This document shows positions 37,424 through 42,759 of a DNA stretch of 64,000 nucleotides, one piece after another. Location of the stretch: assembly GCF_000816105.1 (NCBI RefSeq), contig NZ_CP007140.1, positions 1,328,388 to 1,392,387 on the forward strand, in the 5' to 3' direction. This DNA is from Thermococcus guaymasensis DSM 11113 (GTDB taxonomy: Archaea; Methanobacteriota_B; Thermococci; Thermococcales; Thermococcaceae). Position 1 is the stretch's first letter; the number at the start of each line of letters is the position of its first letter. The notes below the pieces were generated by a model. That model made no database searches. It saw only the letters and a list, made by a program, of their open reading frames with translations, and was not told the origin of the DNA. A program made the translations under genes and the position numbers.

Positions 37424-38743
37424 CTATGCTCCGTTTTCCCTCTTTATGCTGTGCACGAGAACCTTTAATCTTTCCATGAAGTCCTCGCTCACTGGGAGGT
37501 TCTCCTTGATGAGAAGCTCCACAGTGTTCATCGCATTCGTCAAATCAGGCAAGTTCTGCACCGTGTAGAACTTGAGGTCGTTGAGCGTGTTCAAAAGCTC
37601 CGCCTTCCTGTTGAGCTCGGCGTAAGCTAAAGCCAGCTTGCCGAGCGTCTCAACCACGAGCCTCCTGTTCCTCAGTGTCTCCTCGGGTGTGGTGCTCTTT
37701 TTGAGGGCCTGAACGCTCTTTGAGAGGGTCTTCTTGAGCTCCTCAACTTCCTTCTCCAGCTCGGCCTTCTTCTTTTCCACTTCCTCAAGCTTTTCCAAGT
37801 CCCTCAGGAACTCATCCACACTCTGGTACCGCTCCTCCTTCCTCTTCGCGAGTAACTTCTTGAAAATACCGTCGTACTTCGCAAGCGCTGGATTAATCTT
37901 TGAGGGTGGCGTGAAGCGGTAGCTCTCATCGGTTATTTTGCCGAAGACCTCCTCGTAGGTGTGGCCTTCAAAGGGAAGCTTTCCGGTTAACAGCTCGTAG
38001 AAGGTAACGCCCAGCTGCCAGATGTCGGTTCTCCCATCGGTATGCCCGTACTTACCCGGCATTAAATGCTCTGGCGCCGCGTAGAGTGGTGTATAACCCA
38101 TAACGCTCCTGCCAGAGCTCATCGTTCCGATTTTTGCAAGACCCCAGTCGGTAATCTTTGGCGTTAAATCGGACTTCAGAAGGATGTTGAGTGGCTTCAA
38201 ATCGCGGTGATAGATGCCCTTTGAATGCGCGTGTTTAAGGCCTTCAGCAATGCCCCGGATGAGCTTTAAGGCGGTCTTCTCGTCCACTGGCTTCGGATAG
38301 CCTCCCAGATCCCTGACGGTTTTTCCATCGACGTTAACACCCTCAACGAACTCCATCTCAAGGTAGGGAACTGGAAGGATGTCCACGTCATACAAGCGAA
38401 CGATGTTCGGATGGTCGAGTTGCAACCATGCCGTGATTTCTTTGAGGAATGTTTTGCTCGTCCTCTCATCAATGCGCGGGATTTTGAGGGCGACAATTTT
38501 GCCATCTTTCTTGCGTTTGGCCTTGAAAACCTTGGCGAAGCCGCCTTCACCAAGGAATTCGAGGGGTTCGTATTTATCCAAGAGCTCGGGCGGAAAGCCC
38601 GGGACTGGGAGTTCTTGGTGGGCGGGATTCCTCGCTGGCACCGCCGGTTCTTCAGGTCTTTTGGCCTCTATCGGTGCCGGTGCTGGCTCTGGCTTATTTC
38701 TGGATTTTCCGCCTCTAGCTTTCGCCACAACACCACCTATCAA
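37424..38743 (-). CDS. Eukaryote-like Ser/Thr protein kinase, cytoplasmic part of a membrane-anchored receptor
   Basis: A Hanks-type kinase: LGEGGFAKVFKAKRK (Gly loop), IVALKI (ATP lysine), HRDLKPLNILL (catalytic loop), ITDWGLA (DWG in place of DFG), YAAPEHLMPG and DIWQLGVTFYELLTG. A coiled-coil (LEKLEEVEKKKAELEKEVEEL) and a helical tail follow. The open frame continues upstream through a transmembrane helix (NPLYIAGALIGLLLIGG) and a heptad stalk, with no ATG or GTG before the TTG at 38743. The natural start therefore lies in the frameshifted segment 38744-39298. The catalytic domain is intact. Confidence 0.85.
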   Translation of the reverse strand: MIGGVVAKARGGKSRNKPEPAPAPIEAKRPEEPAVPARNPAHQELPVPGFPPELLDKYEPLEFLGEGGFAKVFKAKRKKDGKIVALKIPRIDERTSKTFLKEITAWLQLDHPNIVRLYDVDILPVPYLEMEFVEGVNVDGKTVRDLGGYPKPVDEKTALKLIRGIAEGLKHAHSKGIYHRDLKPLNILLKSDLTPKITDWGLAKIGTMSSGRSVMGYTPLYAAPEHLMPGKYGHTDGRTDIWQLGVTFYELLTGKLPFEGHTYEEVFGKITDESYRFTPPSKINPALAKYDGIFKKLLAKRKEERYQSVDEFLRDLEKLEEVEKKKAELEKEVEELKKTLSKSVQALKKSTTPEETLRNRRLVVETLGKLALAYAELNRKAELLNTLNDLKFYTVQNLPDLTNAMNTVELLIKENLPVSEDFMERLKVLVHSIKRENGA

Positions 38744-39298
38744 GAGGAGTCCGATTAGTGCTCCTGCGATGTAGAGGGGGTTAATTCCACTGCTGGGATA
38801 TTGAGTCTTTACTTCCGCATTTGTGTCTTGGATCTGAGCGTTGGTGTCATGTATCTCTGCGTTGGTGCCGTGGACTTCTGCGTTCGTTGATTCTACTTGA
38901 GCGTTGGTATTCTTGATTTGGGCGTTTGAGTCTTGGCAGAAGTCACAACCCGGAAGGTTTCCATCCGGCGGAAGCCGAAGAACCAGACGTCACCATTACC
39001 AGCGCCGAAGCTGGTAATGTAGCCTGCCACTATGATATCCCGTTTGGAGCGATGGCAACTGCATCACCACCAACGTTTTTTGCCCAAATAACGTTTCCAT
39101 TTGCATCAAGTCGCATCGTGAAAGAACCTGTAACAATGATATCCCCGTTTTCAGCTATTGCAACCGCGTAAGCCTCAGCATCCCCGTCCCTGCCGTAACT
39201 CTTAACCCACCACGCCCGGGGCTTTCGTTAGCCTTGGCGAGCGGCAGGAGAACCGCAGTCAGCACGATGACTGTCAGGAGCAACGATGCACGCTTCAT
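38744..39298 (-). pseudogene. Frameshifted extracellular N-terminus of the receptor kinase
   Basis: Reading minus from ATG 39298 (GGTGGTGCT before it): a signal peptide (MKRASLLLTVIVLTAVLL), then SPG. A one-base loss near 39213-39221 shifts the frame to WWVKSYGRDGDAEAYAVAIA and ENGDIIVTGSFTMRLDANGN. Another one-base loss near 39039-39042 (GGGAT for expected GGGGAT) shifts to DIIVAGYITSFGAGNGDVWF. A third near 38966-38972 joins PDGNLPGCDFCQDSNAQ, which is in frame with the stalk, membrane helix and kinase. The repeats look like propeller blades used as a sensor. Three separate lesions mean decay, or a low-quality stretch of sequence. Confidence 0.78.
38801..38926 (-). repeat. Six tandem 21-bp units encoding a heptad stalk
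   Basis: Six units spaced exactly 21 bases (GCGTT or GCATT at 38817, 38838, 38859, 38880, 38901 and 38922 on the plus strand). Translated on the minus strand they read NAQIKNT, NAQVEST, NAEVHGT, NAEIHDT, NAQIQDT and NAEVKTQ. This heptad pattern between the propeller and the membrane helix should form a rod or coiled-coil spacer whose length could vary by slippage. Confidence 0.8.
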
Positions 39299-39314: not shown

Positions 39315-40658
39315 CTACGGCACTTCAGGATAAGAGGTTTTCGGCTTCCTGATGATGTCCTCAAGATCGCTTAGGTCGTAAGCCCCCGCTGGCTTCCTCC
39401 CCCTTATCTCCCTCGCCACGAGGTAGAGGTGGATTCTCTTTTTCGTCCCGAGGGCTTTTGCCTTCTCCCCCAACCACTCAAGCTCTCTCCTTGCCTCTTT
39501 CCCGCTCAGCGTCTCCCACTTGGCCTCGAAGAGGGCTACGTCCTCCTCCCCAACCGCCACAACGTCTATCTCGAAGGAGTCCCTTCCCTTCTCCCTGCCC
39601 TTGAACTTGCCCCAGACCTTGCCGGTCGAGAGCACCTCGAAGGGAACCACCCTCGGAGCCAAGAGCTCCACGAGGGCCTCGAACTTCCTGCCGATGTAGG
39701 AGTTGAACTCCCCCCCGTCGAACCTCAGTTCGCCGCGCTCAAGCTTTGAGTAGTTCCGCCAGAGGAAGCGGAACCAGAACTCAACGAGGTTCTGGGCTAT
39801 GTAGTACCGGTTCCTCCCCCTGCCGAAGGCGTCCTTCCTCTTGGTTATCAGCTCGTAGTCCCGCTCAAGCGAGTGCAGGTACTTGGTCAGGCTCGTGCTC
39901 TTCACCGAGAGGTGCGACGCTATCTCCCCGAGGGTGTGTTTGCCCTCGCTTATCGCCTGAAGGATGCTGAAGTAAGTCCTGTATTCCTTTCCAAGCTCTT
40001 CTTTGAGCATCATCATGACCTCGGGGAACATCGGGTATGGCTCCTCGAAGAAGAGCATCCTGATGAAGTCCTCGACCGGGAGGCGGAAGCGCTCAAGCGT
40101 CTCGTAGTACTTTGGCAGGCCTCCGAAGACCGACCACATCACCACTGCATCTTCAATGCCGTAGCCTAAATCCTTCATAATCTCTAAAACCGTCCCGAAG
40201 TCCAGCTCCCTGAGCTTTATTACGAAGTCGAACCTCCCGTAGAGGGGGCTTGAGTAATCCTCGATGAGCTTCTTGCTCATAGCTATGAGCGAACCGGTGA
40301 CGACGAGCTTGGCCTCACGGTATTTGTCGAGGAGCCTCTGGAGGTCGTAGAGGAAGGCCGGGTTCACCTTCAGGACGTTCTGGAGCTCGTCTATGAAGAC
40401 CGTTTCCCCCTCCCTTAGGAGAAACTCCACTATCTCCTTCATCGAGGTCAGTTCGGGGATGTAGCGCCTCTCCCTTACCTCCTCTATCCAGTCACGGCAT
40501 ATTAAGGCCTCGCTCTTCTCCGCCGGGACGAAGAGCGTTATCGGGTTGAGGGCTTCCTCAACAAGCCTCGTTTTGCCCACCCGTCTCCTGCCTATAATCG
40601 CTATCCTCTTCGCCTTTCTCAGGAGTTCGATCTCGCGCTCCCTGTCGTAGAACCTCAT
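39315..40658 (-). CDS. Archaeal AAA-like ATPase with winged-helix and DUF234-like C-terminus
   Basis: A 447-residue protein: P-loop IIGRRRVGKTRLVEEAL, Walker B ETVFIDELQNV, arginine region VTGSLIAMSKKLIE, then a winged-helix segment (SEGKHTLGEIASHLSVKSTSLTKYLHSLERD) and a C-terminal DUF234-type nuclease-like domain (FEIDVVAVGEEDVALFEAKWE, a D...E-x-K pattern). Common mobile-prone family in Thermococcales. Two tandem operator-like palindromes lie in its leader (40663-40693), suggesting autoregulation through the wHTH. Its stop lies 17 bases before the kinase start. Confidence 0.9.
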   Translation of the reverse strand: MRFYDREREIELLRKAKRIAIIGRRRVGKTRLVEEALNPITLFVPAEKSEALICRDWIEEVRERRYIPELTSMKEIVEFLLREGETVFIDELQNVLKVNPAFLYDLQRLLDKYREAKLVVTGSLIAMSKKLIEDYSSPLYGRFDFVIKLRELDFGTVLEIMKDLGYGIEDAVVMWSVFGGLPKYYETLERFRLPVEDFIRMLFFEEPYPMFPEVMMMLKEELGKEYRTYFSILQAISEGKHTLGEIASHLSVKSTSLTKYLHSLERDYELITKRKDAFGRGRNRYYIAQNLVEFWFRFLWRNYSKLERGELRFDGGEFNSYIGRKFEALVELLAPRVVPFEVLSTGKVWGKFKGREKGRDSFEIDVVAVGEEDVALFEAKWETLSGKEARRELEWLGEKAKALGTKKRIHLYLVAREIRGRKPAGAYDLSDLEDIIRKPKTSYPEVP

Positions 40659-40662
40659 AGTT

Positions 40663-40693
40663 ATACCCCACAGGTATTATACCCGTCAGGTAT
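40663..40693. promoter_or_regulatory. Two tandem palindromes (ATACC-N5-GGTAT type), operator of the ATPase gene
   Basis: Plus strand: ATACCCCACAGGTAT at 40663-40677 and ATACCCGTCAGGTAT at 40679-40693, period 16. Each is an inverted repeat (ATACC/GGTAT). They fill the space between the ATPase TATA region (CCTTTTTATACC on the minus strand) and its ATG, so binding would block transcription. Confidence 0.65.
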
Positions 40694-40765
40694 AAAAAGG
40701 TTTTGAGTTTCATGCACTTACCGGTCGAGAATCAGCAAGTGTTTATAAACAGGTGGCGATCATCA

Positions 40766-40794
40766 TTCGGCAAGACTTTATAAACCTTGCCGAA
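40766..40794. promoter_or_regulatory. Nine-base inverted repeat enclosing a TATA box
   Basis: Arms TTCGGCAAG (40766-40774) and CTTGCCGAA (40786-40794) are perfect inverse complements around ACTTTATAAAC, which contains a TATA box. The same TATA-like word TTTATAAAC appears at 40742 and 40823 as well. The last one is properly placed for the gene at 40864; the palindrome may hold an operator, or may be a second regulated promoter. Confidence 0.5.
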
Positions 40795-40863
40795 CGGCGT
40801 TCCGCAAGGCCGACCAATCGCCTTTATAAACCCCCTCGCCTTTCCCGCCTCAGGTGAGAGAAA

Positions 40864-42759
40864 ATGGGGAGACCTGTCTTCCTGGGTAAGGCGTACATAA
40901 ACTGGTGCGAGGAGTGCAACGTCCCAATCATCGGCGATAGCTGTGCCGTTCACGGGAAGGAGAAAGTATTCAGGCTGAACATAACCCCTCCGGGCGATTT
41001 GAGGTTCGCCTTTGAGAAGGACTTGGAGTTCATAAAAGAGGTCTTCCGAGAGCACTTCGGCGTTGACGTTGGTGAAGTTCTCGACGGAAAGGTAGTCCTG
41101 CTCAACAAGCTCCCCAGCGAGGACGACGCCTACGAAATCATAGTTGACGGCTACGTCTTCGGCTACGTCAAGTTCAATCCCCTTGAGCTCCGCTGGAGGG
41201 CCGGCCTGAAGGTCGAAGGTGCCATCGCGCTCTGGAAGCGCTTCGGAAGGGAGATGAAGAAGTGGATAATCGTTGACAAAGGCGCCGTCGAGCCGATAAA
41301 GAAGGGTGCGAACCTGATGGCGGTCGGAGTCCTCGAGGCGGAGCCGAGCATAAGGGTCAACGACGAGGTAATCCTCGTTTCCGAGGACGGCGAGGTCTTT
41401 GCGACAGGGATAGCGAAGAAGGACTACGAGGCCCTGATACGGGGCGAGCGCGGGACGGGTGTAAAGCCGAAGAGGCAGAAAAGGGTCAACTACCGCGAGG
41501 GCAGGAAGGCCACGATGGAGGACGTGCTTAGAGCTAATAGCATAGCGCTTGAGGACAAGGTCGTTAAGAGCAGGGAGTTCATGAGAAGAGTCGCGAACAG
41601 GTATTCTGAGCTCCCCGTTGCGGTCGCGTTCTCCGGCGGAAAGGATAGCCTGGCGGTTCTCGGCCTTGCCCTTGAGGAGTTTGGAGGGGACTTCACTGTC
41701 TTCTTCAACAACACGGGGATAGAGTTCCCGGAGACCGTTGAGTACGTAGAAAGGCTCAGGAAGGAGCTTGAACCGAAAGGAATCCGGTTCATAGTGGCCG
41801 ACGCTGGAGACGCGTTCTGGAGGGCTCTCTACGTCTTCTCCCCTCCGGGCAGGGACTACCGCTGGTGCTGTAAGGTGACGAAGCTCGGCCCGATAACGCT
41901 CGCCATAAAGGAGAACTATCCCAAAGGCGTCCTCATGTTCGTCGGCCAGAGGAAGTACGAGAGCATAAAGCGCTTCAAGCAGCCGCGCGTCTGGAGAAAC
42001 GAGTGGGTGCCCAACGAGATTGGAGCGTCGCCAATATTCCACTGGCGCGCGATAGAGGTCTGGCTCTACATCTTCAGCAGGAAACTGCCCTACAACCCGC
42101 TCTACGAGAGGGGCTTTGACAGAATAGGCTGTTTCCTCTGTCCGAGCGCTTCGCTGGCTGAATTCGAGAGGCTCAAGCGCGAGAAGCCGGAGCTCTGGGA
42201 GAAGTGGTTTAGGGCTTTGGAGCACTGGAGGAAGCGCTTTGGCCTTCCCGAGGAGTGGATTACCTATGGCTTCTGGCGCTGGAAGAAGCTGAGTAAAGGT
42301 GAAAAGGCCATAGCCAGGAAGCTCGGCGTCGAGATTCCCGAGAAGCGGTCGTGGGAGCCGGTTAAGGTAAGGATTGAAGAGACCAAGGACGGCTACGAGC
42401 TGGAGTTCAACACCGTTCTCAACAAAAAGCGCCTCCTGCAGGTCGCGCCGATACTCAGCGAGGTGAGCGTTGAAGGGGACGTCATAAGGGCAGGCGAAGT
42501 CGAGTTCTTCACGGGAACGAGGAAGGCCAAAGCTCCGGACGAGAGGGAAGCGGTCAGCGCCTACTACCTCGTTAAGAGGGCCTACGAGTGCGTCGGCTGT
42601 GGCGTCTGCGTCGGCAAATGCCCGGAGGAAGCGCTCAGCATAGACGAGAGGAGCAAAAAGATAGTCGTCGACTGGAACCGCTGTACTCACTGCAGGGAGT
42701 GCATGGAGGTCTGCCCGCTGTTGAAGATTAAGAACCCCGAGGAGGGAAGCCAGCTTTGA
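40864..42759 (+). CDS. PAPS reductase-family PP-loop protein with PUA domain and C-terminal ferredoxin
   Basis: A 631-residue archaeal fusion. An N-terminal zinc-like knuckle (WCEECN...DSC) is followed by a PUA-like domain near residues 130-190 (KKWIIVDKGAVEPIKKGANLM), a PP-loop PAPS-reductase domain (VAVAFSGGKDSLAVLGL; YRWCCKVTKLGP; RIGCFLCPSAS) and a two-cluster ferredoxin (CVGCGVCVGKCP, CTHCRECMEVCP). A PUA domain suggests RNA binding, so thiolation or another sulfur transfer to RNA is as plausible as sulfate reduction. ATG 40864 follows AGGTGAGAGAAA; TATA at 40823-40831. Confidence 0.9.
   Translation: MGRPVFLGKAYINWCEECNVPIIGDSCAVHGKEKVFRLNITPPGDLRFAFEKDLEFIKEVFREHFGVDVGEVLDGKVVLLNKLPSEDDAYEIIVDGYVFGYVKFNPLELRWRAGLKVEGAIALWKRFGREMKKWIIVDKGAVEPIKKGANLMAVGVLEAEPSIRVNDEVILVSEDGEVFATGIAKKDYEALIRGERGTGVKPKRQKRVNYREGRKATMEDVLRANSIALEDKVVKSREFMRRVANRYSELPVAVAFSGGKDSLAVLGLALEEFGGDFTVFFNNTGIEFPETVEYVERLRKELEPKGIRFIVADAGDAFWRALYVFSPPGRDYRWCCKVTKLGPITLAIKENYPKGVLMFVGQRKYESIKRFKQPRVWRNEWVPNEIGASPIFHWRAIEVWLYIFSRKLPYNPLYERGFDRIGCFLCPSASLAEFERLKREKPELWEKWFRALEHWRKRFGLPEEWITYGFWRWKKLSKGEKAIARKLGVEIPEKRSWEPVKVRIEETKDGYELEFNTVLNKKRLLQVAPILSEVSVEGDVIRAGEVEFFTGTRKAKAPDEREAVSAYYLVKRAYECVGCGVCVGKCPEEALSIDERSKKIVVDWNRCTHCRECMEVCPLLKIKNPEEGSQL

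Follow-up and report, generated by a model that had tools for sequence, protein, structure and literature searches.

Two perfect 15-bp dyads lie in tandem between a TATA-like box and the start codon of a gene for a 447-aa ATPase in Thermococcus guaymasensis DSM 11113. The pair is very probably the operator of the ATPase gene itself, bound by its own protein, because the encoded protein is the only evident factor common to the hosts, loci and promoter types concerned; autoregulation is argued for by the operator sequence, which tracks the encoded protein across hosts and not host or locus. The protein belongs to the ATPase_2-DUF234 (ATPase-DUF234) family, presumably COG1672, a common, uncharacterised archaeal ATPase family and a candidate defence system.

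The tandem dyads and the encoded protein

The main features in the window (the whole stretch of 64,000 nucleotides analysed) are as follows:

40663–40677, strand not assigned: proximal dyad, ATACCCCACAGGTAT (ATACC-CCACA-GGTAT), 4 bp from the start codon
40665–40669, minus: GGGGT within the proximal dyad, putatively Shine-Dalgarno-like
40679–40693, strand not assigned: distal dyad, ATACCCGTCAGGTAT (ATACC-CGTCA-GGTAT), 16 bp start to start from the proximal dyad
40691–40698, minus: putative TATA-like box of the ATPase gene, TTTTTATA; same TATA-dyad-ATG order in relatives
39315–40658, minus: ATPase gene, 447 aa (ATPase_2/AAA_14, MarR-like winged helix, DUF234; best PADLOC model PDC-S27)
40569–40592, minus: Walker A, residues 23–30, GRRRVGKT (G23, R25, R26, G28, K29 and T30 invariant in 31 members)
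39789–39974, minus: winged helix-turn-helix, residues ~229–290 (MarR/HTH Pfam matches and AlphaFold model)
39339–39746, minus: DUF234 domain, residues 305–440, predicted restriction-endonuclease-like fold with D365...E378-x-K380 (conservation, domain model, fold matches)

The preliminary description of this DNA had noted two palindromes 16 bases apart between TATA and start, and both dyads are present at these positions. Each unit (ATACC-N5-GGTAT, 15 bp) has perfect 5-bp arms, 1 bp separates the two (16-bp period), and a gap of 4 bp lies between the proximal dyad and the start codon (ATG, 40658–40656, minus strand). By the usual TATA rule we take TTTTTATA to be a TATA-like box; it shares 3 bp with the outer edge of the distal dyad, and apart from this overlap the site lies between TATA and start as claimed. 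Across the 1,920,914-base genome (single contig), ATACCN5GGTAT occurs at these two places only. A single unit is unremarkable and the pair is not chance, because 1.5 single units but 1.2e-6 exact pairs are expected per genome by base composition. The divergent gene at 40864 has further inverted repeats in its promoter region, at 40766–40794 (TTCGGCAAG/CTTGCCGAA around TTTATAAA) and at 40785–40809 (CCTTGCCGAACG/CGTTCCGCAAGG).

The encoded protein matches the PADLOC PDC-S27 model (E 1.9e-34) and the Pfam families ATPase_2 (51.6 bits, threshold 33.2) and DUF234 (43.4 bits, threshold 22.5), as well as AAA_14 and a MarR-type HTH. Walker A and B are intact (G28, K29, T30 and D90, E91 invariant in 31 members), D365 and K380 are invariant and E378 nearly so in the same set. 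An AlphaFold model from 31 family members (mean pLDDT 90.8) includes with high confidence the winged helix that had been ascribed to this ATPase (helices 243–250 and 254–267; wing strands 271–274 and 284–287). Modelled alone (pLDDT 93.2), the DUF234 part resembles the nuclease folds of AF1548, Can2, SduA and McrC (Z 8.0–9.2; the best Foldseek E was only 1.9e-3). On these models, the single polypeptide is predicted to combine an ATPase of STAND/Orc-like type with a winged helix that reads DNA and with a nuclease-like domain.

Nine family genes are present in the T. guaymasensis genome (this gene and eight paralogues), including a subclade B member just past the window end (G000:C1:1392755–1394053) with its own ATCC-type pair. 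Downstream of the ATPase gene, a decayed receptor-like gene (37424–39290, minus) has a beta-propeller part whose reading frame is broken, followed by a Ser/Thr kinase ORF that is intact. Its counterpart in G032 is a single gene of 1528 aa that encodes PEGA, propeller and kinase domains, and in G019 and G046 a receptor-like gene of the same kind directly follows an A pair, the ATPase being lost there.

Probable operators of family members in the Thermococcaceae

The comparison covered 118 family loci: 30 supplied with the list of relatives, 80 hand-picked from the remainder of that list and the 8 T. guaymasensis paralogues. Three were left out (L058, 5′ truncated; L016, frameshift; L018, operator partly N), leaving 115, which a protein tree divided into 13 groups, lettered from A to N for this analysis. 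The stretch scored was the 64 bases before the first conserved codon, searched for four matching arms in two units with a 14–17 bp period (cut-off 24), and 203 genes from the window and 16 neighbour loci served as controls. This four-arm score with real control genes was used in place of a two-dyad score with within-sequence shuffles, which was too weak in AT-rich promoters.

Related tandem palindromes before other family members, set beforehand as the test of the initial reading, were found in 86 of the 115 Thermococcaceae members, vs 2 of the 203 controls, and in 10 of the 13 subclades. Both control matches are relic operators before nif3, left by a lost family member. Scores of 24 or more were obtained in groups A (9/9), B (18/19), C (14/18), D (17/17), E (14/14), G (7/7), M (2/2), J (3/3), I (1/1) and K (1/1), and in none of the members of F (0/14), H (0/9) and N (0/1). 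An eleventh subclade, F, has one nested dyad instead, placed over the start codon, with 93.8% of positions paired and four pairs changed on both sides; none of 500 shuffles scored as high on any of five measures. On the four-arm score H and N are like the controls. Eight subclade H loci (L099, L100, L101, L105, L106, L118, L122 and L134) carry a long conserved upstream block without tandem dyads (TGTAGAAAGATTATTATACTTTGCCAACATCATTTT and variants), which perhaps contains a wide GATGT...ACATC dyad.

Each subclade has its own half-site. Units of 15 bp at a 16-bp period carry ATACC in A, ATCC in B, TTAC in C and ATTCA in D; the period is 15 bp in E (TACTC), G (TTATC), J (ATAAC) and K (TACT), and 14 bp in I and M (both TAATC). 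In A–D both dyads lie between the TATA box and the start codon, the first centred 7.5–12.5 bp after the TATA centre and the second 9–13 bp before the start codon (one exception at 29), while in E, I and M the second dyad is on or adjoining the start codon. Arms were compared ungapped, MAFFT having inserted gaps into the 31-mers: among 47 distinct 31-mers of A–D, mirrored arm positions were complementary in 89.1%, vs 17–42% with one side slid by 1–3 bases. Arm position 3 has changed in all four arms together: groups A and C have A there, B has C and D has T.

Counterparts of these changes were sought in the recognition helix. Its identity does not follow the operator (0.43–0.71 among proteins with ATACC operators vs 0.21–0.64 for other operators), and no specificity residues were found; two subclade A members with ATACT arms (G046/G059) show no clear change in this helix.

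Gene loss, plasmids and other phyla

A search allowing ≤2 mismatches located the A pair at 16 places, spread over 15 of the 94 Thermococcaceae genomes, and a control pattern at 0. Eight places precede an A-type gene that is open, in one case truncated by the end of the contig, and eight have no intact gene, although some of the latter keep remnants (94 codons in G052). The subclade A genes with the pair occupy at least four different neighbourhoods, and neighbours differ among the subclade A loci, where the constant partner gene of a two-gene toxin-antitoxin module was looked for and not found. For the B pair, 18 of 25 places precede an intact gene, 2 a frameshifted gene, and 5 have no gene.

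The D pair occurs at 51 places; among the 30 read, 13 precede a D-type ATPase and 17 lie without one between two genes that we take, from our own reading of the proteins, to be elp3 and nif3. The occupied locus has the order elp3-pair-ATPase-nif3, where the stop of the ATPase gene overlaps the start of nif3, and the empty locus the order elp3-pair-nif3. Among 48 elp3 junctions, 8 were not readable as elp3-nif3 (G051, G022, G039, G067, G034, G015, G072, G046), 5 have the ATPase and 35 lack it. When these 35 were classed by eye, 15 pairs were perfect and 20 damaged (by mismatches or indels, or reduced to one unit). Among D-type genes selected for their protein similarity, 17 of 17 have a perfect pair (intact pairs beside a D-type gene vs relics, Fisher p 3.5e-5 in a test that ignores phylogeny). 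Because 17/17 pairs are perfect beside the gene vs 15/35 after loss, the operator is retained where the gene is present and tends to decay where it is gone. A search of 12 ATPase-less genomes with a D-type protein returned distant paralogues only. The T. guaymasensis genome itself has a perfect D-type pair between elp3 and nif3 (G000, L222:4001–4031), with no D-type ATPase present.

Homologues on plasmids were taken from 160 + 148 records. Eight of 14 scored at p 0.025 or better by shuffling of hand-picked stretches unequal in length (400 shuffles, floor 0.0025): those of M. jannaschii, one haloarchaeon, Fusobacterium, Cetobacterium, Vescimonas, Bacteroides and two Vibrio. Six of seven haloarchaeal plasmid homologues fall short of p 0.05 in this test. 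The Cetobacterium homologue (L296:325–373) has three tandem dyads, not two, with a 15-bp period, and the Vescimonas dyads overlap a promoter that matches at 11 of 12 positions.

When 84,980 species genomes were scanned blind for the exact A pair, it turned up at 17 places (~0.2 expected), of which 13 are directly before an orthologous A-type ATPase (41–80% tblastn identity; in L312 the ATPase was read over 35 codons only). These 13 comprise six DHVE2, two Thermoplasmata and one each from Methanomethylicota, Micrarchaeota, Thermococcus, an Aminicenantes MAG and another archaeon. The remaining four are three Thermococcus relics and one orphan in a Methanoperedenaceae MAG (L318:4844–4874), with no ATPase match within the surrounding 8 kb. 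The exact pair was absent from the viral contigs searched. In the Aminicenantes MAG the ATPase has 41% identity and the pair is laid over a sigma-70 promoter, TTGACA-16-TATAAT (12 of 12). MAG contigs can be misbinned, yet this consensus bacterial promoter speaks for a bacterium as host, in which case the promoter type changes with the host and the operator stays.

Proposed autoregulation, competing readings and known systems

The dyads are family-wide in geometry, with four arms changing in concert, associated with the gene across phyla and decaying after gene loss. Autoregulation, initially called plausible, is supported at the sequence level by half-sites that differ by subclade and by an identical half-site before orthologues from further archaeal phyla and from one bacterial MAG, and is by far the best reading; autorepression is probable. 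The same data support widening the interpretation from a single gene to a putative family rule with private half-sites, to which subclades H and N and most of the haloarchaeal homologues tested are exceptions. A family-wide, subclade-specific operator would give this family a regulatory rule and indicates the winged helix as a sequence-specific DNA reader.

We infer binding by the own protein as dimers, repression and release along the following lines. The winged helix would mediate binding of the ATPase, in the simplest case as one dimer on each of the two adjacent 15-bp dyads, whose centres are 16 bp, or about one and a half helical turns, apart; the centre spacing of 14–16 bp in the family suggests two dimers on adjacent, roughly opposite faces. 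Bound protein would cover the DNA from the TATA box to the start codon and most likely repress its own promoter, which could keep a potentially dangerous ATPase-nuclease at a low level. The dyads occupy TATA, start site and ribosome site (in the bacterial MAG, the -10 region), a placement that suggests repression, and it is from this position that we infer repression rather than activation. With one half-site per subclade, the nine family genes of the genome should not cross-repress. Release might follow from an invader or from a change in the nucleotide or oligomer state of the STAND-like ATPase. A further extension can be put forward tentatively, as a conjecture more doubtful than not: the entire family in Archaea and Bacteria would be made up of one-gene immune switches, in which the winged helix parks the ATPase-nuclease on its private tandem operator, silencing the gene and holding the protein inactive, until an infection signal brings release, raised expression and an armed nuclease, with the paralogues forming insulated (orthogonal) repressor-operator pairs.

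A variant within autoregulation, and not an alternative to it, is that the own protein binds while the circuit is activating or bistable, like that of controller proteins in restriction-modification systems, or that operator-bound protein is a stored inactive guard with repression as a side effect. In its favour are the tandem dyads at the own promoter, whose unequal symmetry is reminiscent of controller-protein operators, and the STAND/Orc-like ATPase fold; we regard the variant as possible, if clearly the less expected form. Against it is the position of both dyads in A–D after the TATA box and before the start codon, where archaeal repressors typically act.

Regulation in trans, by a separate host transcription factor that binds the pair, would accommodate the elp3-nif3 junctions at which a D-type pair is intact although the genome lacks a D-type ATPase, and the 8 of 16 Thermococcaceae A-type places without an intact gene. 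The 15 intact D relics are the main fact that simple autoregulation leaves unexplained; they may reflect recent losses, or the pair may have another user. A trans factor is nevertheless unlikely: the same ATACC pair stands before the orthologue in several archaeal phyla and a bacterial MAG with no other evident common factor, each subclade has its own half-site, the genome holds no second target of the pair, and relics decay.

Still less probable is that the pair is an attachment or target site of the ATPase-nuclease acting as a mobile or homing element. The occupied and empty elp3-nif3 loci, the nuclease-like domain and the patchy distribution of the gene would fit such an element. Against this, the pair lies on the promoter side at a nearly fixed distance from the start codon, moves with the gene between loci and has half-sites that diverge by protein subclade; 20 of 35 relics are damaged, and a non-systematic look at the loci read revealed no duplication at the other gene end.

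Translation control by RNA hairpins in the leader would draw on the Shine-Dalgarno-like letters (GGTG/GGGG) inside the proximal dyad. Archaeal transcription starts ~25 nt after the TATA box, and the hairpins are highly improbable because this would leave only part of one dyad, the proximal, in the transcript; moreover, the spacers vary, and in the bacterial MAG it is the -10 region that the dyads span. Chance palindromes in an AT-rich promoter, for which the expected 1.5 single units per genome would allow but the 1.2e-6 exact pairs would not, can practically be dismissed, the controls refuting them with 2 matches in 203, both true relics.

Under the preferred reading, autoregulation by the encoded ATPase, the 31-bp pairs would be ready probes for about a dozen proteins, the subclades a natural source of repressors from hyperthermophiles with their matching operators, and the gene-loss relics natural cases for watching operator decay.

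In the literature searched, which covered few subscription journals, no description of operators of the ATPase-DUF234 family was found. The 447-aa protein agrees with the PDC-S27/ATPase_2-DUF234 family in domain order and in its PADLOC and Pfam matches. S27 is described in PMC12988326 as an ATPase fused to a PD-(D/E)XK member and counted as 3503 archaeal and 4562 bacterial systems, and the majority of PDCs still await validation. The passages on PDC-S27 mention no winged helix and no operator, and ‘operator’ and ‘autoregul’ have 0 occurrences in the paper. PF01637 is linked to DUF1703, not DUF234, in PMC1913061. Residues 1–298 share the fold of the archaeal Walker-type ATPases 2qen (PAB2304; Z 21.2, rmsd 3.1, 285 aligned) and 2fna (SSO1545; Z 19.5, rmsd 3.5, 284 aligned); these matches do not extend beyond about model residue 298, which leaves the DUF234 part without a counterpart. 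To our knowledge, no operator is known for either.

An AAA+ domain plus winged helix is shared with Orc1/Cdc6 initiators (Orc2; Z 13.5, rmsd 3.7, 280 aligned) and with STAND/NLR ATPases (NLR RPP1; Z 13.9, rmsd 4.3, 277 aligned); NLR and CED-4 chains reached Z 12–14, but Orc was equally good. Orc binds origins and NLRs carry sensor repeats, whereas the putative site of the 447-aa protein is its own promoter and its C-terminus is nuclease-like. Similar in arrangement are the controller (C) proteins of restriction-modification systems, which likewise have two adjacent dyads at their own promoter, probably bound by two dimers. Membership among them was rejected, this being a multidomain and not a small stand-alone HTH protein: C proteins are small separate regulators, whereas here DNA binding, ATPase and nuclease-like domain would be united in one 447-aa polypeptide.
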